DNA of 47,144 nucleotides. It comes from a virus. Positions 19,443 to 34,120 of this stretch are shown in pieces. The notes beneath the pieces were generated by a model. It did not search any database. It had not been told where the DNA came from and saw nothing but the letters and a program-made list of their open reading frames with translations. The position numbers were made by a program, and so were the translations under genes. Each line of letters opens with the position of its first letter. The stretch's first letter is position 1. The stretch lies in IMG/VR virus record IMGVR_UViG_3300047585_000266, positions 1-47,144 of that record, one strand, 5' to 3'.

Positions 19443-19916
19443 CTAGGGCTGGCTAAACGCAGCGAACCCATAATAGGTCTGGTACGGCGATGGCGACACG
19501 ACCGACAGATTTGAATTAAGCGCATAGATGCCCCCGCCATTAAGCACCAGCCACGATGGCGCGACCGATGAACCCATAGCATTATAGGTGATCGTGTTTG
19601 CGGCCGTTCCCATGAACGTCTGGAAATAATATTCGGTCGTCGCCAGCGCATAAGATGAATTCTTCCATGTCACCAATGCTGTCGCGATCGTTGCGCAAGC
19701 CACAAACAGACAAGCGCCGGAATTAGGCAGCGCGCCGGAGAACGAGATTGAATTGTCGCCGCCAGTTTCGTCGGCTTCGCCGAGAGAGGTAAACGCCGGG
19801 TAGGTTACCGGAGCATTCACAAAACAGCACAACACCCCTGCATCGGATCGGATCCCAGATCCTATCAGGAGCGCGGACAGCAGCAGGAACGATAGGATGG
19901 GCTTGAAGATATTCAT
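19443..19916 (-). CDS. exported protein of the fibre cassette, 157 aa
   Basis: The last gene of the leftward late unit. The N-terminus (FKPILSFLLLSALLIGSG) is a Sec signal peptide. The mature part is beta-rich with Ser/Ala/Thr and aromatic residues and two cysteine pairs. It has no recognised family. AGGA lies seven bases before the ATG. It may be a small surface or adhesion protein. Confidence 0.55.
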   Translation of the reverse strand: MNIFKPILSFLLLSALLIGSGIRSDAGVLCCFVNAPVTYPAFTSLGEADETGGDNSISFSGALPNSGACLFVACATIATALVTWKNSSYALATTEYYFQTFMGTAANTITYNAMGSSVAPSWLVLNGGGIYALNSNLSVVSPSPYQTYYGFAAFSQP

Positions 19917-19932
19917 GGTCCGTTCCTTGGCG

Positions 19933-20145
19933 TCATTTAGCTAGTTCATTGCGCTTCTGCAGAGCCTGGGTTCGGCGCAAGGCGTTGTCGTGCTTGAGCT
20001 TGTCTTTGAATATCTGAGCGGCATTAGGCGAAGCCATTTCTTCCTTGGTCATGACCTGATCAACCGATTGCCATTTCTCAGCCGGGATGGGTTCTTCGGC
20101 AAAAGCAACTGTCGTAAATAAAACGAGGACAAACAAACTTCGCAT
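19933..20145 (-). CDS. exported 70-aa protein
   Basis: The start at ATG 20145 is set by GGGAGG upstream. It has a Sec signal peptide (RSLFVLVLFTTVAFAEE) followed by a short charged helical mature part. Function unknown; it may be a periplasmic helper for neighbouring exported proteins. Confidence 0.55.
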   Translation of the reverse strand: MRSLFVLVLFTTVAFAEEPIPAEKWQSVDQVMTKEEMASPNAAQIFKDKLKHDNALRRTQALQKRNELAK

Positions 20146-20146
20146 A

Positions 20147-21826
20147 TCAACCTCCCTGCACCCAAGAACCGCCATCTGTGCATGTCACTTTGCCGCGCGT
20201 AGTGGAGTAGGTGGACCCTATATAAGCGGCTCCAACTGATACTGTAGCAGGCAGGTCTGAAACGTAGACGCTCTCTCCAAGACACCACGTTCCTGCCGTA
20301 GGAATCGTAGTGTGCGTGTAAAAGAACTGATCCTTCACAAGCATCATCGACGTGTTAGGAGCAGAATTAGTAATCGGCACTGCAACGGCGAGTATGTGGT
20401 TGTTGGCGACGGTTCCGTACAGGAGATTGGTTGAGGCGATATTGATTCCCGTACCGATTCCGGCGTTGAAGACATAGCCGCTGATGTTGTTCGTCTGTAC
20501 ATTGAGATCGTTCGTGCTGTTGAAATCCATCGCCGGAACGGCCGACTGCCCTGCCGCAGGTCCGATCAGCTCGACAATATTTCCCGTAGCGCTAACGCCG
20601 GGCCAAAACAGCCCACCGGAAATCGGCTCAAAATAAAGAAACCGCTGCGAATTGAACGCGCCCTCATTGATATGAATATTGATGTTGGAGATGTTAACGC
20701 TAGTCGAGCCGAACGAGTTTATAAATGTCACCGCGTCACCGAGATAATTCTCAATGTGATTGATAACTAAATCGATATCGCTCGTCGTGCCGCTTGCCAC
20801 CGTAGTGAAATTATAAAAGCACCCCAAGGCATTGCCGCCGATACCCCAATTATCCAGCGCATCGAAGCCGCCGGCTGATGTTTGCTGAATGGCGCAAACC
20901 GTCGCCGACGTCCCATATGGTGCACCAGCATTGATGAATTGATTATGCGCGACAAAGTTGGCACCCTGATCAACCTGATGTGGATTGCTTATAGTCAGAC
21001 CAGCGACTGAGAAGAACTCAAAATAGCTGAACGTAATGTTGGCCTGCGTGCAATAGGCGCAGACGAATTCTGTCTGGAAATATCGGAAAGTGACGTTGTG
21101 GACTTGTATGTTTGAGATCGCGTTGGACGTATCGCTGGGAGCAAACACCAGACCATTCGAGAGTGGGGCTGATCCGAATGTATTGCTCAAACCCAACAAC
21201 GCGAAATTCTCGAACCTGGGACCGCCCGCCGATACATTGTTACCGGTGAACGTGACGGAATTGCCGGAAGCCGCTGTAGAGATCAGAGAAGAACAGGCCG
21301 TCAAAGGTTGCTGGCATGAGCCATCACCGAGAATGCCGCCAGATGGGATGGTGATGGCGCTGAATTTGTATCCCGCCGACGTGGCTGGATAATAGACGAT
21401 ACCGCCGAGATTATGCGCGTGCTGCATCGCGACAGTGTCATCGGCCACGTCATTGCCAACGGCCCCACACCACTTGACATTCAGCATCGCGCCGTTCGTG
21501 ATGCGATACCAGCGACGGTTCAAGCTATCGACATGGATCGTGCAGCCGTTATCGCTGGAGGTCGTGTCCGTGCTGACGTACTGCCATTGACCGCCGCCGC
21601 CATCTATTGTCGGCCAAGTCGCGGAGTAATTCAGCACGCTAACAAGTTGAACGTTGATGTTGCTAGGGACCGTACTCAGCGCGGCCAGATTGCCTACCGC
21701 AAGCGTGGAAACGATATCGTCGTTCGTCGTTCCGATTTCCAACCCGTTCAAGATTCGCTGCTGCGCATGGGACGACCCCATCAACAGCACAGACAGGAGG
21801 AAGAAGCGGATGAGGAAATATTTCAT
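20147..21826 (-). CDS. tailspike-like right-handed beta-helix protein with signal peptide
   Basis: A 559-aa protein. A Sec signal peptide (LIRFFLLSVLLMGSSHA, cut before QQ) precedes a linker. The motif WCGAVGNDVADDTVAMQ near residue 120 is the entry motif of pectate-lyase-like beta-helix tailspikes. About 350 residues of Asn/Ser/Thr-rich repeats follow, and a small C-terminal domain resembles those of phage receptor-binding proteins. Such proteins bind or cut surface polysaccharide. The signal peptide is abnormal for a virion tailspike. The ATG overlaps the stop of the 41-aa gene. Confidence 0.7.
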   Translation of the reverse strand: MKYFLIRFFLLSVLLMGSSHAQQRILNGLEIGTTNDDIVSTLAVGNLAALSTVPSNINVQLVSVLNYSATWPTIDGGGGQWQYVSTDTTSSDNGCTIHVDSLNRRWYRITNGAMLNVKWCGAVGNDVADDTVAMQHAHNLGGIVYYPATSAGYKFSAITIPSGGILGDGSCQQPLTACSSLISTAASGNSVTFTGNNVSAGGPRFENFALLGLSNTFGSAPLSNGLVFAPSDTSNAISNIQVHNVTFRYFQTEFVCAYCTQANITFSYFEFFSVAGLTISNPHQVDQGANFVAHNQFINAGAPYGTSATVCAIQQTSAGGFDALDNWGIGGNALGCFYNFTTVASGTTSDIDLVINHIENYLGDAVTFINSFGSTSVNISNINIHINEGAFNSQRFLYFEPISGGLFWPGVSATGNIVELIGPAAGQSAVPAMDFNSTNDLNVQTNNISGYVFNAGIGTGINIASTNLLYGTVANNHILAVAVPITNSAPNTSMMLVKDQFFYTHTTIPTAGTWCLGESVYVSDLPATVSVGAAYIGSTYSTTRGKVTCTDGGSWVQGG

Positions 21827-21948
21827 TTCTTGCCTGTGTGGACCACGAGCGGAGGCCGGTCGTTGAAGAAGTAGAGGGTGAAGGTCATCGCGAACGCCCC
21901 GGAGGCTGCGAGTAGCAGGCTAAGGGAAATCAGGAGTTTTTTAAGCAT
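21823..21948 (-). CDS. exported or membrane-anchored 41-aa peptide
   Basis: Good ribosome binding site (GAGG, six bases) and ATGA overlap with the tailspike gene. The N-terminus (KKLLISLSLLLAASGAFA) is a signal peptide or signal anchor; only about 20 residues follow (TFTLYFFNDRPPLVV). Confidence 0.5.
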   Translation of the reverse strand: MLKKLLISLSLLLAASGAFAMTFTLYFFNDRPPLVVHTGKK

Positions 21949-21987
21949 CTGGCACCTCGGTTTGAGGGGTTGTAGCACGTTAGGCGG

Positions 21988-24468
21988 CTAGTTGTACGTC
22001 CCGATCGCCGTCAATTGCGGTTGAGGCGTGATGTAGATGTCCGGGTCCATGATCGCCCACTGATTATCGGGACCGCCTCCGAGCTGGAACAGCGACGGAA
22101 ATTCACCGCCAGCCGTCGTGGTAAAATCATTGTACATTCCTGTGAGGACAGTTCCGCTGACGAGCGTACCGCCATTGATGGCGAGTGCTGCATCTGTCGT
22201 AAACTTCGAGAAGTAATTCAGGTAGGTGATATTTGTCGATCCATTGTTGATCGCGAAGCCGCCCTCATATGCATTCATTTTGAGCGCGTTGCCAGCATTG
22301 TTGGTGTAGCCGTTTCGGAACGTGAAGACGTTCTGATAGCAAACCACGTTGCTGTTGGTGTTCACGGTATCGACGAAGGCATTGAGCGCCGCCATTCCAG
22401 CGGAATTAATCAGCCGCATCGTCGTGCCGCTTGGAATAGATATCGAGCTATTGCTGATTGTCCATGTCGATCCGCTCCCGCCAGTCACGGTCACGCCGGC
22501 CGGGATCAAGCCATACAGATCAGTGAGCGTTTGCCCCGCAACCACAGTACCAAAAGCCGATGCCGATATCGTTAGGGTACCTGCGGATATGCTTCCGGTG
22601 ATCTGGGACGAGTTTGCCGCGAATGCCGCTTGCTGTCCCGTTCCGTCCGAAGTTACGCCGTAATAGACCGAGCAGCATACGTGCGTCGCCCAATTGGAGG
22701 CAGCGCTTTTGGTGTAGCCGGATTGAGGGGAAGCCGATTGAGCGAGGTATTCCGTCGATGTAAGGCGTGGTGACTGCGAGGTGTCCACAGAAACCTGAAA
22801 TGGCCCGGTCTGCACCCCAACCACGATCTGATAGCCCGCTCCGACAGCCCCACCATATGATGCGTTAACAGCCTGCCCGATTGTCGAGAGCGTTTTTCCG
22901 ACCCAATTGTTGCTGTCGAATTGACTTCCCCAATGAAGAAACGCCTTATTCCAAGCATATTCGGTCTGCCAAAAACCGAAAGCCGAATTCCAAAGCTCGT
23001 TACAACCCTCGAAACGAGGGATCATCCAGCTTGGCCCGTTGCTTTTGATGTAAGCCGCCGCCTGCGAATGCCAGTCCGTCATCGGATCAACGGCCATCAT
23101 CGGAGCAGGGAACCAAGGATGCGCTCCCATTTCCTTACAGAGTTGGATCATGATTTCAAACGGACAACCGTTACTTAAACCACCTGATCCCGTACCATCA
23201 CCGCCATTCTTGAGCCATGAGCTTAGATCAGCATCATAAACTAGCGTGGCAATCGTCGCGTTGGCCTGCGGCCCGGTTCCCTGATTAGTTAAATCGGTCG
23301 TGGGATTTCCTGAAAAATCCTTGATCGGAACAGCGCCACCGCCGTTTAGGTTCAACGTACATAGTCTCGTTCCGACTTGGCCGCCGCTTGCTCCTGTTGC
23401 GACAGTAATGGGCGAACCGCCAGGTGTCGCGGCGATCTGGAAGAAATTTGCAGTCAGACCCGCGGCTAACACATAATAGGTTTGACCTGATGAAATATTG
23501 GGGGGAGGAAATTGCAAAAATCCCGGCGTAAGCCCAATAGGTTCTCCACCGCTAAAGCCATGTGCCGTCCAGTTAACGCCGCCACCGGCACCCGTCGTGT
23601 ATGTGATGGATGCTGATTTAAAGGTCGATGTTTGATCAAAATACAGTTGGATGGTTTGCTTGTCCACGGGAGCACCTGACCCGAACGAAACAGCATAATC
23701 ATAGCCATTAAAACTTCCTTCGCTGGTGGTGCCCGCGAATAGACTGGCTCGATACTCTACGTCAGCATAGGTGAAATAATTTAGCGGCTTCCGTGTTGCC
23801 CACGTCGTAACATTAGATTGATTGGCAGGCATCCAGTTCAAGAACCGATAAACGCCCCAACCGCCTTGTTTCAGGATCGCCTTAAACTGCGTCCCGAATA
23901 TCTCACCCGCATTATAAGCTGGGAGATCGGCCGTGTAGACGATAGAAATTGAACTGACATAATTGAGCGGGGAAGCGCTAATTGTGTTGACGCCAAAGCG
24001 TACTTGCTGCGGGCTGGTCGTGGCGTTCGGTTGGAGTGTCACCCATCTGGTGCCGTCATTCGCTCCCGTAAGCGACCCCGACACGACTGTTCCAAATCCA
24101 CTCATAACAGTCGTGCTGTCTCCACCGACCCATGTCATACTGTAAGTCCCGCCGCGAACTATCGTGGCAGGGAGATATGCTAACGAGTAATATCCTTGGG
24201 ACTGGCACTGCGTCGGATAGCCGTTGGCGTCATTAAATTGCGGGCTTACCTGCGCGTTGGCATTCGGGTTTGAAGAATAGTTCCATGCTTGTGCGGTCTT
24301 CACGATATTGAGGAATGGAAACTCGTTGCCGAAGCTAGGAAAGTTGAAGTTGACCTGTGATTTTCCGTTATTGAAAAAAGACGAGGCGCTACGCTTTAAA
24401 AAAGCGATTGCTGGAGTGGGCATTAACGCAATAGCGCTTGAACCCGCGAGAAAAGCACGCCTGTTCAT
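21988..24468 (-). CDS. Tat-exported glycoside-hydrolase-like protein (clan GH-A type)
   Basis: An 826-aa protein. The start at ATG 24468 overlaps the upstream stop as TGATG and gives a twin-arginine signal (NRRAFLAGSSAIALM, then APAIA-type cleavage). The N-terminal 400 residues are beta-rich. A barrel-like region carries FEGCNELWN with candidate acid/base E491, and NAYEGG with candidate nucleophile E735. The pairing NE-x-W and YEGG is that of clan GH-A hydrolases. A Gly/Ser/Thr beta domain is inserted between them. The likely substrate is an exopolysaccharide. Tat export implies folding before secretion. Confidence 0.65.
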   Translation of the reverse strand: MNRRAFLAGSSAIALMPTPAIAFLKRSASSFFNNGKSQVNFNFPSFGNEFPFLNIVKTAQAWNYSSNPNANAQVSPQFNDANGYPTQCQSQGYYSLAYLPATIVRGGTYSMTWVGGDSTTVMSGFGTVVSGSLTGANDGTRWVTLQPNATTSPQQVRFGVNTISASPLNYVSSISIVYTADLPAYNAGEIFGTQFKAILKQGGWGVYRFLNWMPANQSNVTTWATRKPLNYFTYADVEYRASLFAGTTSEGSFNGYDYAVSFGSGAPVDKQTIQLYFDQTSTFKSASITYTTGAGGGVNWTAHGFSGGEPIGLTPGFLQFPPPNISSGQTYYVLAAGLTANFFQIAATPGGSPITVATGASGGQVGTRLCTLNLNGGGAVPIKDFSGNPTTDLTNQGTGPQANATIATLVYDADLSSWLKNGGDGTGSGGLSNGCPFEIMIQLCKEMGAHPWFPAPMMAVDPMTDWHSQAAAYIKSNGPSWMIPRFEGCNELWNSAFGFWQTEYAWNKAFLHWGSQFDSNNWVGKTLSTIGQAVNASYGGAVGAGYQIVVGVQTGPFQVSVDTSQSPRLTSTEYLAQSASPQSGYTKSAASNWATHVCCSVYYGVTSDGTGQQAAFAANSSQITGSISAGTLTISASAFGTVVAGQTLTDLYGLIPAGVTVTGGSGSTWTISNSSISIPSGTTMRLINSAGMAALNAFVDTVNTNSNVVCYQNVFTFRNGYTNNAGNALKMNAYEGGFAINNGSTNITYLNYFSKFTTDAALAINGGTLVSGTVLTGMYNDFTTTAGGEFPSLFQLGGGPDNQWAIMDPDIYITPQPQLTAIGTYN

Positions 24469-25340
24469 CAGAGGCCCCAACGCGATCTGGCATTCGACTG
24501 GACGGCTGAATTATAAGTCGTTGGATAAATACCAAATTCCCCGATGTACCCCGTTACAAAATTTACACCGCTGTTGAACTGACAAAAATTCAAAGCACCA
24601 GACCCGATATTATTGCTGGCTGAATTTCCAGTGGTTTGCGTTACGCCATCGACGTCGATGGTGCTGCTGGCTGCGTTTGCCGTCATCTGCAGAACGTGTG
24701 GAGCGGAATCAGCCGCAGTCTGACTGAGCACAGCACCATTGTACATCCCGACCGTGTTCGCTCCTTCGAATCCAAACTGGGAGTTAAAGCCGTCCCCTGT
24801 TGCGTTACCCAAAATATTTTGATTTGCGCTGAAGTTTCCGGTCCTCTCTGCCAGAGCTTCGAAAGTATAAGGCTGCGCCTGTGCAACGACAGTCGCGGCC
24901 ATTGCCGACGATCCGGTGCAGTTAATAACCGGAAGGCTATGTACGGCAGCAAATGCGATCTGCGGCATGTTTGCAAGCGTCGCCTGCGTCCATCCCGTCG
25001 TGTTTCCGGTTTTGTCGTAAACCTTCGCCACGCTGCACGCCGTCGCGCATGCATGTCCTGCACTTTGCGCAGTCGTATAGTTGACCGTACCCGCTGACGT
25101 TACGTGAACGGTATCAGCAACGAGGCCGGTTGCGGTGTCAACGAGATCACAGGCAGCGCTGCCAGAAACAGCGTCGGCGGTAGAGAATGCGTAGGAACAA
25201 GAGCCCCATTGATTGAAGGCTTGGCTGTCTCCTGGGCCAACGTAGGCAGGAGCCGCCGACTTCACCATTCCAAACAACACCTGCGCATCGCACGGCGCCG
25301 TTAAGGCAGCGAGAATGGCTAATAGCTTGAGGATTTTCAT
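24468..25340 (-). CDS. exported LamG/arabinofuranosidase-B-like lectin-fold protein
   Basis: A 290-aa protein. The start at 25340 overlaps the stop of the 31-aa gene. Signal peptide ILKLLAILAALTAPCDA. The mature protein shows the pattern of the concanavalin-like domain of alpha-L-arabinofuranosidase B (AFSTADAVSGSAACDL, then VYDKTGNTTGW, and a C-terminal GYIGEFGIYP). This domain is common in phage tail proteins and usually binds sugar. It directly precedes the glycosidase gene, so the two may act together. Confidence 0.6.
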   Translation of the reverse strand: MKILKLLAILAALTAPCDAQVLFGMVKSAAPAYVGPGDSQAFNQWGSCSYAFSTADAVSGSAACDLVDTATGLVADTVHVTSAGTVNYTTAQSAGHACATACSVAKVYDKTGNTTGWTQATLANMPQIAFAAVHSLPVINCTGSSAMAATVVAQAQPYTFEALAERTGNFSANQNILGNATGDGFNSQFGFEGANTVGMYNGAVLSQTAADSAPHVLQMTANAASSTIDVDGVTQTTGNSASNNIGSGALNFCQFNSGVNFVTGYIGEFGIYPTTYNSAVQSNARSRWGL

Positions 25341-25432
25341 GTCGTCCATCCTATCTCTTCACACAATCGAATGTATTCCCTGACCGTCATGTAATTGGCT
25401 TCAGTGAGGGCGCGGGCGAGGGTTTGGGTCAT
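25337..25432 (-). CDS. 31-aa coupled peptide
   Basis: A 31-codon frame bridging the S74 gene and the lectin-like gene with ATGA overlaps on both sides. The product is helical and charged (TEANYMTVREYIRLCEEIG) with no signal peptide. It could act mainly to couple translation. Confidence 0.45.
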   Translation of the reverse strand: MTQTLARALTEANYMTVREYIRLCEEIGWTT

Positions 25433-26925
25433 CGGATACCGAACACTCTGCACTTCCAGTTGTCGTTGCATGCGCGGAGATTGTCGTTCTCCGATTTCAG
25501 TTCCTTGATTGCGCCTGCTAGGATGGCCGTGAGTTGCTGGTATCGAACACCGCGGACTTCGCCGTCATCCCCGCGCGCAGTTAAACGCTCGTCAATCTTG
25601 GCAACGTCCTCGGCGACAAAGCCGACTTGCACATCATGATCAACATTGCCGCCGAACTCTTCCTTCTTGCGGAAGGAAACAGGTTCAAGCTGCATCGCAG
25701 TATTGAGTGCATCTTTGCTGGTAATACTTTGGATGTCCTGCTTGAAGCGCAGCGATGATGTCAGGCACCCGAGCGTGGCATCATAGGTGAGTAGCCCGGT
25801 GCCTGAATTGAAACAGACCGTCCCGGTTTGAGCTGCGGACGTTTGCCCCATATTAGTGACGGCAAGCGTGCCAGCGAAGGTTGCTGCCGACGTACTTGGT
25901 GTGCCTCCCCCGGAGATCGTCAATACCGGACCAGCACCGGGGCAGACAAAGAAAGTGTCATTTACATTGCTCGTATCACAGATATCGCTGCTGCCATTTG
26001 TTGCAGATAAAACGATATCCTGAGCACTGTTGGTCTGAGCGTCGCCCGCAAACGCACCTAAAAATAAGTGCCCACTTCCTGCGGTGAGCGCGCTTCCGAC
26101 GTTATAGCCAAGGCCAGTATTTCCCACGCCGGTCATAAGCCCGGCATTATTCGTCCCACCACTACCGCCAGCTTGAAAGCCGATCCAAGTCGCCCAGCGA
26201 TTTGCAACATTCCGCCCAGCACCTTGCCCTATCAATGTGCCGCCGCCGCCAGTACCTTGGATATTGCGACCTGCATCATCACCCATGCAGGTCCATGACC
26301 CGGTATTTAAGGTCGTCCCCCCATTGCCGCACGCATTGTGTCCGAAGGCACTGTTTTGATTGGCTATACCGTTGAAAGCCCAGCCCGCTTTATCGCCAAA
26401 AAATGTCGCTTCATTTCCTGCAAATAATGGCTGTCCCGTATCGCCCTGTCCGAGGTTCAAAATCAGGTTACCGTTTGAATTTGTAGTTCCGCCAGTACTC
26501 AGCATCGGAAAGCTAATATAGGAAGCGATAACTCCAAGTGATGCCGTCACTGTGTAGCCAGTTCCAACCCCTGATGTGGATGCTTGTGAGCAACTAATCG
26601 ATCCGCTAGGCACAGCGCCGGAAGTAATGCCTGGCATCTCAAGAATGCCTTGAGTCACCGCCCCCGTCGTAACGGTATTTACACCAATTACCGGAGAAGA
26701 TGTGAAATTCACTCCAGTACATTGAAGTGTAATCGTGTCGCCAGCCACGTATCCCGTCATCGTCCCACCGGGCGCGCTAATACTGCCGGGAGCGAGTGCG
26801 AATTGGAGGCCGCCAAAGGCTGATACAATTGGGCCTAAAGTAGTGGGCTGCGTCGCCGTCGCAGTCTGTGCAATCGCCTGCCCCACCCAAAGAGAAGCAA
26901 CCAGTGCCAGGATGATCTTCTTCAT
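25429..26925 (-). CDS. tail-fibre protein with C-terminal S74 chaperone domain and signal peptide
   Basis: A 498-aa protein. GAGG six bases before ATG 26925 favours that start over the upstream TTG. Signal peptide KKIILALVASLWVGQAIAQ. The middle is a Gly/Asn/Thr-rich fibre shaft with repeats of the G-x-N-x-G type. The last 110 residues are a Peptidase_S74 intramolecular chaperone: SSLRFKQDI holds the Ser and Lys (five residues apart) used for self-cleavage. It trimerises the fibre and is then released. Exported S74 fibres are unusual for a phage. Confidence 0.75.
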   Translation of the reverse strand: MKKIILALVASLWVGQAIAQTATATQPTTLGPIVSAFGGLQFALAPGSISAPGGTMTGYVAGDTITLQCTGVNFTSSPVIGVNTVTTGAVTQGILEMPGITSGAVPSGSISCSQASTSGVGTGYTVTASLGVIASYISFPMLSTGGTTNSNGNLILNLGQGDTGQPLFAGNEATFFGDKAGWAFNGIANQNSAFGHNACGNGGTTLNTGSWTCMGDDAGRNIQGTGGGGTLIGQGAGRNVANRWATWIGFQAGGSGGTNNAGLMTGVGNTGLGYNVGSALTAGSGHLFLGAFAGDAQTNSAQDIVLSATNGSSDICDTSNVNDTFFVCPGAGPVLTISGGGTPSTSAATFAGTLAVTNMGQTSAAQTGTVCFNSGTGLLTYDATLGCLTSSLRFKQDIQSITSKDALNTAMQLEPVSFRKKEEFGGNVDHDVQVGFVAEDVAKIDERLTARGDDGEVRGVRYQQLTAILAGAIKELKSENDNLRACNDNWKCRVFGIR

Positions 26926-26933
26926 GATGGACC

Positions 26934-27788
26934 TCAATTATACAAAGCTGAAATGAAAGCGTGCGCTGATGATGTCAGCGTAAAGCAGCCCGTCGTGCTA
27001 ACGCCGACCGTGATGCCGGTAGCCATCGTCACACCCGGAACAGGATCGGAAACCGAATAGGACGTGGTCCCGGAAGGCAGCGCCACGCATCCTGCGGGAG
27101 TTATCGCGCCATTGGATGGAAATGACGTGGCGTCAAAAATAACAACCCACCACGGAGCGGCAGAAAGCGTCGTATCGGCTGAGATTTGATAGCCGTACAA
27201 TTGTCCTGCGGAAGCCTTGGCCACGAGGCTTGATGCTAATGCCGATGTTTGGGCGTGCGTGGCGTAGTTGAGAAGCTGCTGCGGCGAAATGAGCAGATTG
27301 CCGTAGAGATCGCAGCCGAGCTTGGTCACCGTATTGGAACCCACCTGGCTCGCAGTCGTGGCGTTGGTGTAGCCCTGGCAAGTGGAGGCGGCGATCAGTG
27401 CTGCATATAGATTGTTGTTCGTAGTTGGAGTATCGACGTTCAGCGCGCGGTACTGGTTGAGCGAAAACGTGCCTTGGGTGCCGGAGGTAAGTGCAGTTGG
27501 AGAGGAGTTATATTCGCCGCCGCCGGGAGTGAAGTTCGAGGTGCCGGCGGTGAATGTCGCGCCGTCCTGGACAGAAAGGCCGCCGCCTCCCCCGCCGCTG
27601 ATCACCAACGGATTTCCGCTGTCGCAGGGGGCCCAGGAAAGCGGCGAGGTCGGCACCGTGCCGTTGTAGCAATAGAGATAGGCGACCGGGGCGCCGTCAT
27701 TGAGGGCAAGTAGCGGCCCGCTCCACGACAGCAGGAGGAGCGTGGCAGCAAGGGCCAGCCTAGCGGCAGCCCTGATTGTCGCCTTCAT
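26934..27788 (-). CDS. exported virion-like protein, first gene of the cassette
   Basis: A 284-aa protein. The start at ATG 27788 has GGAGAAG at good spacing; a longer upstream frame would only translate the repeated leader. Signal peptide TIRAAARLALAATLLLL. The mature part contains ATFTAGTSNFTPGGGEYN and ALTSGTQGTFSLNQYRAL, a pattern typical of phage structural proteins with a short repeat domain. A Gly-rich hinge precedes it. The role is probably adhesion or fibre; export is predicted. Confidence 0.6.
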   Translation of the reverse strand: MKATIRAAARLALAATLLLLSWSGPLLALNDGAPVAYLYCYNGTVPTSPLSWAPCDSGNPLVISGGGGGGLSVQDGATFTAGTSNFTPGGGEYNSSPTALTSGTQGTFSLNQYRALNVDTPTTNNNLYAALIAASTCQGYTNATTASQVGSNTVTKLGCDLYGNLLISPQQLLNYATHAQTSALASSLVAKASAGQLYGYQISADTTLSAAPWWVVIFDATSFPSNGAITPAGCVALPSGTTSYSVSDPVPGVTMATGITVGVSTTGCFTLTSSAHAFISALYN

Positions 27789-27933: not shown

Positions 27934-28326
27934 TCAGATGCCGCTTCCCTGGACGAAACAGAAAACAAACAGGCTGCGACTGACGAACAGGACGTTATGT
28001 CCGGTCGGATTGCCCTTGTCCCATTTCAGCTTCTGGTCTGGAATCAGGACCTCGGTACCGACATCGAGATGCGGTCGGCCGAGCGGCTCATCGGGACGAT
28101 CGTCGGTGATCACCGCGAAGGTCTGGCCATCGCGGACATGGACCGTATCCGCATAATAGGCGTCGGCTTCTTTGCAGCAGGGCGCGATGACGTTATCGGG
28201 CTGCATCAGATTCTGGTACCAGTCATGGATTCCCGGATCGGTATTTTCCCATTGTCCGAGGTCGCGCGCCGGGGCAGCTGCGCAGGCCAGCAGTGCGATC
28301 GCCAGCAGGGTGCCCCTCAGATCCAC
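27934..28326 (-). CDS. secreted Cys-containing protein of Bradyrhizobium phage/prophage type
   Basis: A 130-aa protein. Start GTG 28326 has GGAGAAG upstream. Signal peptide GTLLAIALLACAAAPA. The mature part includes QWENTDPGIHDWYQNLMQPD, a CC pair, DDRPDEPLGRPH and KWDKGNPTGHNVLF. I recognise this as a small protein recurring in Bradyrhizobium-type genomes, without known function. It lies at the end of the lysis block. Confidence 0.55.
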   Translation of the reverse strand: MDLRGTLLAIALLACAAAPARDLGQWENTDPGIHDWYQNLMQPDNVIAPCCKEADAYYADTVHVRDGQTFAVITDDRPDEPLGRPHLDVGTEVLIPDQKLKWDKGNPTGHNVLFVSRSLFVFCFVQGSGI

Positions 28327-28817: not shown

Positions 28818-29483
28818 TCAGAAATGATAGGTGAAACCCATCTCGCCGCGATTTTCCGTGGTCGCGGTCTGGCCTGGCGCGATCGTGGTCGCGCCATATT
28901 GCGCATTATAGTAGACGGCATCGACCGTCCACTTGCTGTTCGGGATAAACAGATGCCCGGCAGCACCGGTGCAGTAGCCCTTCAGGAAAGTGCCGTTCTG
29001 GCAGGCACCGACCCGGATGGTCGGGACCGCATTGGCGAGGAAACCCGTGAGAGGCGCGATGTTGCTGAACATCGGCATCTGCGAAAGCGCGCCGCCGAAC
29101 TCCATGCCTTCGAAGGCGAACAGCTTGTTGCCGAAACCGCCGCCCACGATGTCAGAGGATGGCTGCGCGACCGCGTAGGACACATCGGCAATGACGCCGA
29201 GCCAGTAGGTGCCGTTGAAAAACTGGTAGCCGCCGTTGATGCCCATATAAGTGCCGTCCGCGGACAGCGAGCCGAGATTAACGACATCGACGCCGGTACC
29301 GGAACCGGAGATCGAGCCGCCGAGGAAGAAGCCGGAACAGCCGTTGAGCGAGCATGGATTGGCGGGGGCGGCATAGACCGGGGCCTTGATGGGAAGGGTC
29401 TGCGCGGCGAGATCGGCGGCAAAAACCGGCGAGATCAGCGCTGCCGCGAGAATGACAGCCGAAAACAATCGAAGCCTCTTCAT
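28818..29483 (-). CDS. outer-membrane beta-barrel (porin-like) protein
   Basis: A 221-aa protein. Start ATG 29483 has GGAG eight bases upstream. Signal peptide RLRLFSAVILAAALISPVFA, then the IKAPVYAAPANP linker and SGFFLGG strand common in rhizobial outer-membrane proteins. It has alternating polar and hydrophobic strands and a C-terminal Phe (GFTYHF), the signal for BAM insertion. Its own terminator marks it as an accessory (moron-type) gene. It could alter the cell surface of a lysogen or block superinfection. Confidence 0.7.
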   Translation of the reverse strand: MKRLRLFSAVILAAALISPVFAADLAAQTLPIKAPVYAAPANPCSLNGCSGFFLGGSISGSGTGVDVVNLGSLSADGTYMGINGGYQFFNGTYWLGVIADVSYAVAQPSSDIVGGGFGNKLFAFEGMEFGGALSQMPMFSNIAPLTGFLANAVPTIRVGACQNGTFLKGYCTGAAGHLFIPNSKWTVDAVYYNAQYGATTIAPGQTATTENRGEMGFTYHF

Positions 29484-30412: not shown

Positions 30413-31039
30413 TCATGCCGGTTGCCCGGGTCCGTCAATCGCTTCGGCTTCCTGCTCGATCTCGCTGTCGCGCCGCAACCAGTCCTTGCCGAACCATCTG
30501 AAGCCGGGGATCGCCTCATAAAAGCGGTCGCAGGCATTCTTGTAGTCGATGATGGCCTGCGAAGGATTGCCGGCCGCCTGCAGCGTGATCACAGCCTCTT
30601 CGGTGCCAGGACCCCACACCCCATCGGCAGAAATATGCAGCACGATCTGCAGTTCCTTGATCGCGCGGGTCCCGCCGCCATTGACCGACATGTTGAAAAA
30701 TTCGAGGTTCATGCCGTCGGGCAGTTTCGGGCAATAGGGCAGCCAGTACCTGGTATAATAGATCGTGCGCTCTTGATCCTTGGTCATGTTGCGTACCGGC
30801 GTCAGCGGCAGTCCCCACTGCTGCAGGATGACGAAATATTCCTTTTGGGTGATGCCCTCGCCTGTCATTCCGCCGGGATCATGCGCATCGTTTGACCAGG
30901 CGCGGCCGGGCATCGGTCCAGAGGACCAAGCCACGCCTTCCTGGAGTTCGATGTCAGGCAGGCATTTGTCAAAATCCGGATCGGTGCCAGGCGCATAGGG
31001 CACGAAGCTGCGATCGTGCGCGGTCGGGATCGCCTTCAT
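30413..31039 (-). CDS. endolysin, GH108-type lysozyme with peptidoglycan-binding domain
   Basis: A 208-aa protein. Start ATG 31039 has GGAGAAG inside the leader hairpin; a longer frame would read through the repeat. Catalytic region: LQEG with candidate E34, then DPGGMTGEGIT at 54-64, the GH108 core. The C-terminal domain contains ELQIVLHISADGVWGPGTE, a PG_binding_3-type cell-wall-binding helix set. No signal peptide, so release needs a holin. It hydrolyses peptidoglycan at lysis. Confidence 0.82.
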   Translation of the reverse strand: MKAIPTAHDRSFVPYAPGTDPDFDKCLPDIELQEGVAWSSGPMPGRAWSNDAHDPGGMTGEGITQKEYFVILQQWGLPLTPVRNMTKDQERTIYYTRYWLPYCPKLPDGMNLEFFNMSVNGGGTRAIKELQIVLHISADGVWGPGTEEAVITLQAAGNPSQAIIDYKNACDRFYEAIPGFRWFGKDWLRRDSEIEQEAEAIDGPGQPA

Positions 31040-31393: not shown

Positions 31394-34120
31394 TCACCTC
31401 CCCATAATGGCGCGGTCAATACGCGACGGCGCCATGCTGCCCCAGGGCGTGACCAGGAATTCCGTGCCCTGCAGCTGTTTCTGGCGCTGCTCGCTGCGCT
31501 GTAGATATCCCGGATTAATGGCCTCCTGCAAGCGGTGCCAGATAATGGCGTCCGTGGCCTGGTGGGTCAACCATAGATTCATGAACGGGGTATTGTTCTT
31601 AACCATTTTTAAGGCCGTCGCCGCCCGTTCTTTCATGGCGGATGCCGAGAGCGTTCCCGGTGCCGAACTTTCGCCGGCATGCAGCAACTCGGCAAGGTCG
31701 TCGATCTGGCCAAATGTCGGGCCGAGCATATTGGCGGCAGCCGAAAGCCCATGGCGATCGAATTGACCGAGCAGAAAATCACCGACGATCGACCCCATAC
31801 CCGAACGCTGCGCGCCCGCGGCGACGGCCGCAATCGGATGGTTGCGGATTTTAGCCAGCGGATCCTCACCCTTGATCAGGTCGCGCAGACCCTCTGCCAG
31901 CACGCCGAAGATTACGGCACCGACCGCCATCTCGGCGATCCCGCCGAAACGATCCAGCGCGCCATCGCCGATGGTGCCATAGATCTGCCGTTCCCAAGCG
32001 CGGGTGATGACGTCGGCGGGCCAAAGCTTAAACTGCCAGAACAGTTTTAGAGCGACATTCCATTTCGATCCCGGCGCGTAATGTTTGCCGAAAAGCATCG
32101 CCCGGATCCGCGCGCCCGGCGCGGGGATGCCGTAGCCGCTGCGGTCGGTATAGGCCGTCACCAGTTTGAGCGCCAGATTCTCGCGGGCCAACCCGATATC
32201 TTCCGGCGTATGCGTCAGCCCGGTCCCGGGCGGATGGGCTTCGTCGATATAACTGCGGACTTGATCGTCGTTCAATTTCATGGCGTCCGAAGGATAGAGC
32301 AGCGTGCGGCCGCCGATCTCGGTCCATTCGACACTGTTGAGCGCCTTCCACTCAGCCGGACCGATGCCGAACAGATGTAGGATGCGGCTTTCTTTGCGTC
32401 CCACTTCCTCGAAGGATTTACCTCGGTAGAGCCCAAGCTGCTGTGCAAACACAACCTCAAGATCGGCGCGCTGGCGATCGATCACCCGAGACACTCCCGT
32501 GAGATCCCAGAAACGCGCTTCATTGCGGGATATCCAGCCAGCTGGCGTATCGGCGGCATCGTAGGCCTGCAGGTTATGACCGAGCGCGTTTTCGGAAAGT
32601 GCCAGGGTCATGTCCAACATCTGGCGCCGTTCGCTGCCCTCGGCACCAACCCCGAAACCCCGGAATACCGAGGCGTAGCGCTTCTCCCAACTCACGCCCC
32701 AGTGCCGCGCCTCCAGCGGCTTGGAGATCAACGAAGCAAAATGGGTGGCAAAGATATTGCCGAGCTTCGATAGGCGCTGGAATGCCATCCAGTTGGCCAG
32801 CCGCTGCGCGCGGGCGCGGTTGACCGGTTTCTTCGAAGTGCCATCAACCTGCGCAAAACGGTTGTCGAGACCTTCAATCCAGTTTTTTAGATCCTCGAAG
32901 CGACCAGAGGTGGCCTTGATCCGCTCGCGCAACTCCGTCATTTCGGATTCGATCTTGGCCTTGGCGGCCGCATCCGCCGCTGGCGAACTCAGCGCGGTTT
33001 CCAGCGCATGCAGTTTCGAGGTCAGGGCGTCATCGGCGCGCTGTAGTTTGCCCAACTGCCATGCCTTGTCGCGCTCATAGGCTTCGCGCGGTTTGGTGCC
33101 GAATTCCGCCATCAGGGCCGCGCGGCGCGCGTTGGTGACGAAGGCTGCCACCACGGTTTCGGTCGGATTGGCGGCGCCGTATTTTTCGTTATATTCGCGC
33201 CAGGACTTGCCGTCCTTGAAATGCAGTTCGCGGCTGGCTGATGCCCGCTTGGCGATATTGGGATACAGCGGCTCGTCGCGCGGCTGGCCGTAATCGAAAT
33301 GGTCGCCGGACTTCATCGAATTCCACATATGAAATAGCGCTTCGCGGGCGGCGGCGGGATCGCGGGTGCCGAAGGTGCGCTTCAAGTCCAAGAGCGGGAG
33401 GGTATCGTTGATCCATTTCTCCGGACCTGCGACGCGGATCAGATCGGGATCGTGGCTGGTTCGGGTGACATACCCCGTATAGCTGCGGATCCACGCGCCA
33501 AGCCGGTTCAAGGTCGACATCGAATTCTTCTGCCACTTCTGGATCGTCTTGGCGATGGCGAGGGCCTGGGCATCCTTGGTGATGCCGGGCTTGCCTTCCG
33601 CACCGCGCGACAACTGAAACAGTTCATCGACCCAGTTGGCCTCGAGCTGGCGGCTGGCGAACAACTTCATCATGCCGGTGCGCCTGAGGTCGTCGGCGAA
33701 GCCGCCTAACCAGAGATTATGATAACCATTATAGCGCGAGTCGACCGAATCCCGGCTCCGCCAGAACGGCAGATTAACCCCGGAAATCTTGGCTTCCATC
33801 GCGAGCCGCGGCGCTGTCTCGACGTGTCTCGGCGACAGTTCGGAGATTTCCTTTTCGGCCTTGTCGTAGTCACGATGCCGGCTTGATTCCAGCCGCATAT
33901 CCATGATGGCGCCGCGGCGCGCCTTGGCATAGTCGGCGGCAGCCTGCGCCAGGAATTCATCGCGGGCACGGTCATAAGCATCGTCGCGGCGCATGCCATC
34001 ATATTCATAACCCTCGGCGCGGTTGAAAATCTCGTCGAGCGCATCCTGGACGTCCTCGCGCTTGACGCCGGTCTTGCCGGCGATGTCGTCAAAACAATCC
34101 TTGCGGGTGCGGCGCGGCAT
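31394..34120 (-). CDS. large internal virion/ejection protein, 908 aa
   Basis: A large, helical, charged protein with coiled-coil regions (about residues 370-420) and few cysteines. It is the last of three large proteins in the order 1099, 1814 and 908 aa, matching the internal core or ejection proteins of podoviruses. These enter the host envelope ahead of the DNA. No enzyme motif is seen. The N-terminus (MPRRTRKDCFDDI) has a diverged copy upstream at 34624. The start overlaps the preceding stop (TGATG). Confidence 0.6.
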   Translation of the reverse strand: MPRRTRKDCFDDIAGKTGVKREDVQDALDEIFNRAEGYEYDGMRRDDAYDRARDEFLAQAAADYAKARRGAIMDMRLESSRHRDYDKAEKEISELSPRHVETAPRLAMEAKISGVNLPFWRSRDSVDSRYNGYHNLWLGGFADDLRRTGMMKLFASRQLEANWVDELFQLSRGAEGKPGITKDAQALAIAKTIQKWQKNSMSTLNRLGAWIRSYTGYVTRTSHDPDLIRVAGPEKWINDTLPLLDLKRTFGTRDPAAAREALFHMWNSMKSGDHFDYGQPRDEPLYPNIAKRASASRELHFKDGKSWREYNEKYGAANPTETVVAAFVTNARRAALMAEFGTKPREAYERDKAWQLGKLQRADDALTSKLHALETALSSPAADAAAKAKIESEMTELRERIKATSGRFEDLKNWIEGLDNRFAQVDGTSKKPVNRARAQRLANWMAFQRLSKLGNIFATHFASLISKPLEARHWGVSWEKRYASVFRGFGVGAEGSERRQMLDMTLALSENALGHNLQAYDAADTPAGWISRNEARFWDLTGVSRVIDRQRADLEVVFAQQLGLYRGKSFEEVGRKESRILHLFGIGPAEWKALNSVEWTEIGGRTLLYPSDAMKLNDDQVRSYIDEAHPPGTGLTHTPEDIGLARENLALKLVTAYTDRSGYGIPAPGARIRAMLFGKHYAPGSKWNVALKLFWQFKLWPADVITRAWERQIYGTIGDGALDRFGGIAEMAVGAVIFGVLAEGLRDLIKGEDPLAKIRNHPIAAVAAGAQRSGMGSIVGDFLLGQFDRHGLSAAANMLGPTFGQIDDLAELLHAGESSAPGTLSASAMKERAATALKMVKNNTPFMNLWLTHQATDAIIWHRLQEAINPGYLQRSEQRQKQLQGTEFLVTPWGSMAPSRIDRAIMGR

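Follow-up and report, generated by a model that had tools for sequence, protein, structure and literature searches.

The 47,144 bases of IMG/VR virus record IMGVR_UViG_3300047585_000266, a linear record analysed over its whole length and called the window here, carry a cassette of nine leftward genes between positions 27788 and 19443, eight of which begin with predicted export signals. This cassette is, in our view, likely a podoviral tail-fibre/tailspike module in which the receptor-binding proteins are first exported and then dock at lysis. Judged from sequence, the exported fibres very probably cross the inner membrane by the general secretory (Sec) or twin-arginine translocation (Tat) pathway and are cleaved; that they then dock on virions is probable. 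Sequence-based evidence strongly supports the predicted export signals, the position of cleavage, the disulfide signature, the identity of the fibres and, in relatives, a single copy of the attachment domain. We infer late synthesis, docking at lysis and a benefit of export (disulfide-hardened fibres, no premature assembly).

Seven cassette genes start with a predicted Sec signal and one, encoding a protein of 826 amino acids (aa), with a Tat signal; only the 31-aa peptide lacks one, just as the original prediction had it. The genes are as follows, with the predicted cleavage site marked by ^ and cysteines counted in the mature part:

26934..27788, minus strand: 284-aa protein; Sec signal MKATIRAAARLALAATLLLLSWSGPLLA^; 6 cysteines.
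25429..26925, minus strand: 498-aa protein; Sec signal MKKIILALVASLWVGQAIA^Q; 10 cysteines; tail-fibre profiles.
25337..25432, minus strand: 31-aa peptide of a putative gene between the 498- and 290-aa genes; no signal.
24468..25340, minus strand: 290-aa protein; Sec signal MKILKLLAILAALTAPCDA^Q; 6 cysteines.
21988..24468, minus strand: 826-aa candidate hydrolase; Tat-type signal MNRRAFLAGSSAIALMPTPAIA^; 8 cysteines.
21823..21948, minus strand: 41-aa protein; Sec signal MLKKLLISLSLLLAASGAFA^; mature part only about 21 aa.
20147..21826, minus strand: 559-aa protein resembling tailspikes and exopolysaccharide (EPS) depolymerases; Sec signal MKYFLIRFFLLSVLLMGSSHA^Q; 10 cysteines.
19933..20145, minus strand: 70-aa protein; Sec signal MRSLFVLVLFTTVAFA^.
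19443..19916, minus strand: 157-aa protein; Sec signal MNIFKPILSFLLLSALLIGSGIRSDA^G; 4 cysteines.

Signals were called with our own scorer, built on rules for the n-, h- and c-regions; gene calls and cysteine counts likewise came from our own scripts. Seventeen known E. coli signals scored 11.7–16.5, and 99.9% of 2237 internal segments of window proteins scored at or below 11.8. The eight cassette starts scored 13.0–16.5, and not one of the 2237 internal segments reached any of them. All eight starts are ATG codons. A Shine-Dalgarno-like motif lies 5–9 nucleotides upstream of seven, and the eighth, that of the 826-aa protein, overlaps or is coupled to the stop of the preceding gene. Rejected N-termini and true starts lying downstream of the signals, two weaknesses the original prediction had flagged, were looked for and did not appear. 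Apart from two exported genes upstream of the cassette, described below, the remaining window (about 48 genes) gave one marginal signal call.

Two of the exported proteins have fibre or tailspike domains recognizable by profile. The 498-aa protein ends in a Peptidase_S74 intramolecular chaperone (residues 390–446; Pfam, 5.4e-11), bearing out the S74-chaperoned fibre that had been proposed, and also matches the tail-fibre profile phrog_1980 (1.5e-12). Residues 44–145 of the 559-aa protein match EPS-depolymerase and tail-fibre profiles (phrog_4250, 7.5e-11). Residues 37–137 of the 284-aa protein are similar to the N-terminal region of a 689-aa protein of podovirus MW202647, which is signal-less, nearly cysteine-free and encoded beside an internal virion protein gene; neither the 284-aa nor the 559-aa protein had relatives in viral scans. 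The 826-aa protein has the motifs NELWN and YEGGF in common with a signal-less 806-aa protein of another virus (L005). A lectin fold and a GH-A-type hydrolase, also proposed originally, found no backing: for these candidates profile searches, NCBIfam among them, gave no match and PDB sequence searches nothing usable, and AlphaFold2 modelling of the 290- and 826-aa proteins reached predicted local distance difference test (pLDDT) scores of 31 and 28, too low for a fold search.

The cassette also lies where a fibre module is expected. By its PHROG matches (capsid, protease, portal, terminase, internal virion proteins and endolysin), the window phage is a podovirus distantly related to Pseudomonas phage Ab31 and phiV10. 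Its late genes run leftward from 46 kb, and a 908-aa virion protein, the endolysin (30413–31039) and small genes precede the cassette. In known phages the tail-fibre gene comes after the homologue of the 908-aa protein, and in Ab31 it is directly next to it; the cassette, downstream of the late virion genes, is therefore at the expected location. Its guanine-plus-cytosine (GC) content is lower than that of the structural region (53.8% vs 60.6%), and low GC is common in exchangeable fibre modules. The exported proteins apart, the window yielded no fibre gene, and a nucleotide search of the window against cultured phages gave no match.

31394..34120, minus strand: 908-aa virion protein (phrog_684), cysteine-free beyond residue 25, used as the anchor for comparison.

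Relatives were fetched through this anchor, which takes no account of signal peptides. In close relatives whose downstream sequence was available, signals stand on the fibres of L004 and L017 and on a single large protein in both L013 and L016 (L016 encodes a BNR-type protein), and on no fibre of L002, L009, L011, L012, L014, L015 and L019; in L004 a Tat-type signal also precedes an SGNH hydrolase (Pfam, 3.6e-8). Fibres of the distant relatives are mostly ordinary and signal-less. The pairing of signal and fibre, which the original prediction suggested seeking in related phages, proved widespread. The fibre motif 'P..P.G....N..ASTAFV' is present at 63 viral loci in IMG/VR, 61 of them distinct, and a signal directly precedes the fibre in 55 of the 61. 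Of 12 aligned fibres bearing a T7-gp17-like tail-attachment domain, nine also have a signal; fibres of this type add L100, L101, L104, L126, L129, L136 and L138 to the exported group. These figures come from mutually related loci and from follow-up scans aimed at exported families, and are not rates for phages at large. Ordinary cytoplasmic fibres would have no signal peptide, a pattern followed neither by the cassette nor by most ASTAFV-type fibres.

In a second podovirus lineage (L163, with L159, L161, L171, L173 and L184 alike in gene lengths), the exported fibre sits among structural genes; that of L163 lies between capsid (phrog_212) and tail proteins (phrog_394, phrog_376), after the portal (phrog_332). 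Cassettes of several large exported genes recur, as in L138 with three in a row. Fibres with predicted export signals thus occur in this soil-type phage and in dozens of its relatives from several lineages.

What these relatives carry behind the signal bears on docking. In L004, L017, L129 and L138, the tail-protein profiles phrog_1640 and/or phrog_13893 align just after the signal, from profile position 2–4, with the phrog_1640 match beginning slightly later in L017 and L138. Cleavage is predicted before T[VI], at the position where signal-less homologues start MTV (e.g. A^TVNSS vs MTVNSS); in the alignment, TVNSS and TINSA after alanine in exported fibres stand against TVNTA, TVVSS and TVSTT after methionine in signal-less relatives. 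Initiator methionine is removed before threonine, and cleavage at A^T would therefore leave exported and signal-less fibres with one and the same N-terminus. Signals share 29% identity and the first 130 mature residues 62%, the signal being lower in 36 of 36 pairs, as expected if only the export function is conserved. The attachment domain was found in exactly one copy per record in each of eight exported-fibre phages, always the signal-bearing copy, in a whole-record search in which some records may be fragments.

Cysteines pair in proteins folded in the periplasm, so that their number there tends to be even (PMC7678975); in Novosphingobium, 53 of 55 periplasmic proteins have an even count after signal removal, 33 of these having none (PMC3608174). 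The exported proteins follow this rule. The 110 signal-bearing proteins of 200 aa or more from all fetched loci averaged 1.65% cysteine, compared with 0.42% in signal-less proteins of the same phages. The mature count was even in 84 of 94 exported proteins with 2–14 cysteines (89%), as against 166 of 319 signal-less ones (52%; binomial p about 1e-15 for the exported set, Fisher p about 6e-12 between sets), a signature that does not depend on any statement of a signal predictor about function, although the sorting into two groups was done by our scorer. The preference held at a stricter signal threshold (64/72), outside the two named N-domain families (45/49), with one protein per contig (49/56) and at loci found without reference to signals (9/10). 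Signal-less proteins with at least 1% cysteine were even at the rate of chance (82/165). In the window, the mature counts are 6, 10, 6, 10 and 4 for Sec proteins and 8 for the Tat protein, so all six large proteins are even, and the Sec set contains 2.15% cysteine vs 0.34% in head/virion proteins (p 2e-11). This disulfide signature indicates that the exported proteins do leave the cytoplasm.

Within the ASTAFV family, a cysteine pair lies near the motif in 50 of 55 exported and none of six signal-less fibres, for example 'NPNCIVPTAP' vs 'NPNWIVPTAP'. Two of the five exported forms without the pair, L132 and L171, appear mis-cut by the scorer. This locus-by-locus comparison supersedes a stricter-motif test from which duplicates and odd motifs had been dropped (p 0.03). 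Whole-body cysteine content did not differ significantly between the exported and the six signal-less ASTAFV fibres (p 0.32).

It is highly improbable that the N-termini are uncleaved membrane anchors or wrong starts on what are otherwise ordinary cytoplasmic fibres. The signal calls are predictions only, yet the even-cysteine bias is confined to signal-bearing proteins and the cleavage sites coincide with the starts of signal-less homologues. Moreover, the signals diverge more than the mature regions and still all score as signals, and seven of the eight window starts have a correctly positioned ribosome-binding site.

Export followed by docking could proceed as follows. Late in infection, the proteins would be made with cleavable signals (Sec, or Tat for the 826-aa protein), cross the inner membrane, be cut by signal peptidase and form disulfides in the periplasm; in relatives, cleavage would leave an N-terminal tail-attachment domain equal to that of signal-less fibres. 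Heads and tails would be assembled in the cytoplasm without the exported fibres. Once holin and endolysin opened the envelope, the waiting oxidised fibres would dock onto the particles, and surplus fibres would leave as free enzymes, binders or decoys, which is compatible with docking. Ready-made P22 tailspikes reportedly attach late to finished particles in vitro, which makes docking after assembly physically reasonable. The original prediction had the phage secrete its receptor-binding set. Export is upheld by the signals, the even cysteine counts and the cleavage-site match, but 'secretes' goes too far: no outer-membrane route was found, so with a Gram-negative host the periplasm is the likelier location until lysis. 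Among the three purposes it proposed (clearing capsule or biofilm, blocking re-adsorption, docking on virions), docking fits best because the relatives' exported proteins carry single-copy attachment domains and map to the fibre locus or the structural cluster.

The main alternative, unlikely overall but perhaps true of some members, is that the exported proteins never join the virion and are instead soluble decoys or depolymerases freed at lysis, which would remove polysaccharide or cover the receptors of cell debris and neighbouring cells. Several products are of enzyme type (the 826-aa candidate hydrolase, the 559-aa depolymerase-like protein, the SGNH hydrolase of L004 with its Tat signal and the BNR-type protein of L016), each phage has several exported proteins, beyond the needs of one fibre, and in Pseudomonas phage AF an exported fibre-like protein accompanies a normal tailspike that has no signal. 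Free enzymes or decoys do not, however, account for attachment N-domains present once per phage record on the relatives' exported fibres, for the place of those fibres at the fibre locus or within the structural cluster, or for a window in which the exported proteins are the only fibres found.

The exported set proved larger than originally described, with two more exported genes directly upstream of the cassette and in the same direction:

27934..28326, minus strand: small exported protein with a CC motif, kept in L004 and L012.
28818..29483, minus strand: exported outer-membrane-barrel-like protein with a C-terminal F; homologue in L013.

The CC motif is invariant in the first protein and in its counterparts L004:12814–13158 and L012:15996–16397, the latter from a relative without exported fibres. 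The second protein is 36% identical over 107 aa to L013:20437–21075, and both genes adjoin exported fibres; its terminal phenylalanine is as in substrates of the β-barrel assembly machinery (BAM). It is a candidate surface-modifying or exclusion gene by sequence. Together with the podovirus family, it suggests a Gram-negative host; a host search matched two of 398 sampled genomes, and a plasmid search using the barrel-like protein gave no match.

The barrel-like gene is relevant to two further explanations. The first, periplasmic superinfection exclusion, in which the fibres bind host receptors in transit or parts of incoming phages, is improbable. Such a gene does adjoin the cassette, and T4 Spackle (gp61.3) is an exported, signal-cleaved tailed-phage protein acting in the periplasm (PMC7650644); Spackle, however, is a small inhibitor of a tail lysozyme and not a fibre. 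Exclusion would need neither attachment domains nor several large enzymes, and would leave the phage without a fibre.

The second, that the cassette is lysogenic-conversion cargo by which a prophage alters the host surface outside the lytic cycle, seems to us hardly credible. In lambda, conversion genes of the Lom/Bor type encode an outer-membrane or exported product near the fibre genes, and 28818–29483 resembles genes such as lom; the lower GC of the cassette also fits. Lom/Bor products are not fibres, however, and only 28818–29483 is comparable to them, whereas the cassette shares strand and position with the late fibre module, encodes an S74 fibre and has relatives with attachment domains.

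Several points weigh against export followed by docking. Three of the 12 aligned T7-like fibres are signal-less, so the attachment domain works without export. The two best-documented N-domains had no match in the window, whose proteins are not homologous to them, and docking is therefore argued from relatives: the N-terminal virion-attachment domain was found in L004, L017, L129 and L138, and the window proteins have other N-domains, one of them shared with the 689-aa protein of MW202647. No tail-tubular genes were found in the linear window record, which appears incomplete, and an ordinary fibre may lie unseen. Finally, the cysteine pair of the T7-like domain looked promising as a diagnostic in three sequences and was dropped, being present in only three of nine exported forms.

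A signal-less protein of about 110–120 aa stands beside the exported fibres in several lineages (L138:5827–6183, L129:7592–7933, L017:15353–15703, L004:15296–15661, L136:5112–5453, L163:7579–7941, L126:7567–7923 and L140:7669–7998) and was not found in the window; it might serve as the acceptor of exported fibres on the particle. An exported protein of about 206–211 aa follows the capsid genes in L163 (5314–5943), with genes of similar length in L159, L171, L173 and L184; the capsid-adjacent location is odd for a signal peptide. Manatee Spring phage MW202444 (L189:3981–7742) encodes a 1254-aa protein with a strong signal peptide. Acyltransferase-like genes lie on the opposite strand near fibre genes in L002 (15358–16512), L016 (17242–18327) and L008 (16699–18627; Ab31 ORF18, annotated as a peptidoglycan O-acetyltransferase) and possibly serve host-surface modification.

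Assembly of tailed phages is, in textbook accounts, wholly cytoplasmic. A literature search for exported tail fibres of tailed phages found no account, with most subscription journals and preprints outside its scope, and the papers examined on this point used signal prediction as routine annotation only. When an exported ASTAFV N-terminus was compared with 50,697 phage records by tblastn, only eight weak matches resulted; of these, the match in the cultured Rhodobacter phage RcCWillis was examined and had neither signal nor cysteine. We thus found no precedent for an exported-fibre route in cultured tailed phages, and regard the cassette as a tail-fibre module with a different cellular route.

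Known podovirus fibres and tailspikes (T7 gp17-type N-domain, phrog_1640, phrog_13893, Ab31 ORF17) have the same attachment domain as the relatives, and resemble the window in their place after the 908-aa homologue, in their C-terminal enzyme or binding types and in the S74 chaperone (498-aa protein). They start with MTV and have no signal, whereas the relatives have a cleavable signal before the domain and even cysteine counts; the window fibres have N-domains other than those of the T7 gp17-type. The nearest functional analogue, with no homology claimed, is M13 g3p: this receptor-binding protein contains disulfides, loses its Sec signal by cleavage and is placed in the envelope before joining the particle. 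Among exported proteins of tailed phages, T4 Spackle came nearest in the papers covered. M13, however, with a C-terminal membrane anchor on g3p, assembles by extrusion at the inner membrane without lysis, whereas the window phage is tailed, with terminase, portal and capsid genes, and tailed phages build their heads in the cytoplasm and lyse the cell.

Pseudomonas phages AF (AF_025) and Orisa03 are like the cassette in having a signal peptide before a repeat-type fibre-like protein near lysis and tailspike genes. AF differs in its additional signal-less tailspike, and the exported proteins of both, annotated as hypothetical, have 0–2 cysteines. Such fibre-like proteins, with few or no cysteines, were seen in Pseudomonas-type phages at L026, L029:13281–14318, L096:3941–4963 (AF_025) and L097:3437–4357 (Orisa03); AF and Orisa03 are cultured phages.

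On a wider scale, we regard it as an evenly balanced question whether particle completion takes place outside the cytoplasm in a broad group of tailed phages, spanning two or more podovirus lineages and probably others; their receptor-binding apparatus would be exported, undergo oxidation in the periplasm and be fitted to the finished particles while the cell lyses. Were fibres exported first, the assembly factors would include Sec, Tat, signal peptidase and Dsb enzymes of the host, and infectivity would depend on the disulfide machinery of the host. Such a route would explain the cysteine-rich fibres of environmental phages, would let different phages in one lysate exchange fibres between their particles, and would show that viral contigs can encode a signal peptide on a gene that is neither auxiliary metabolic nor host-derived.

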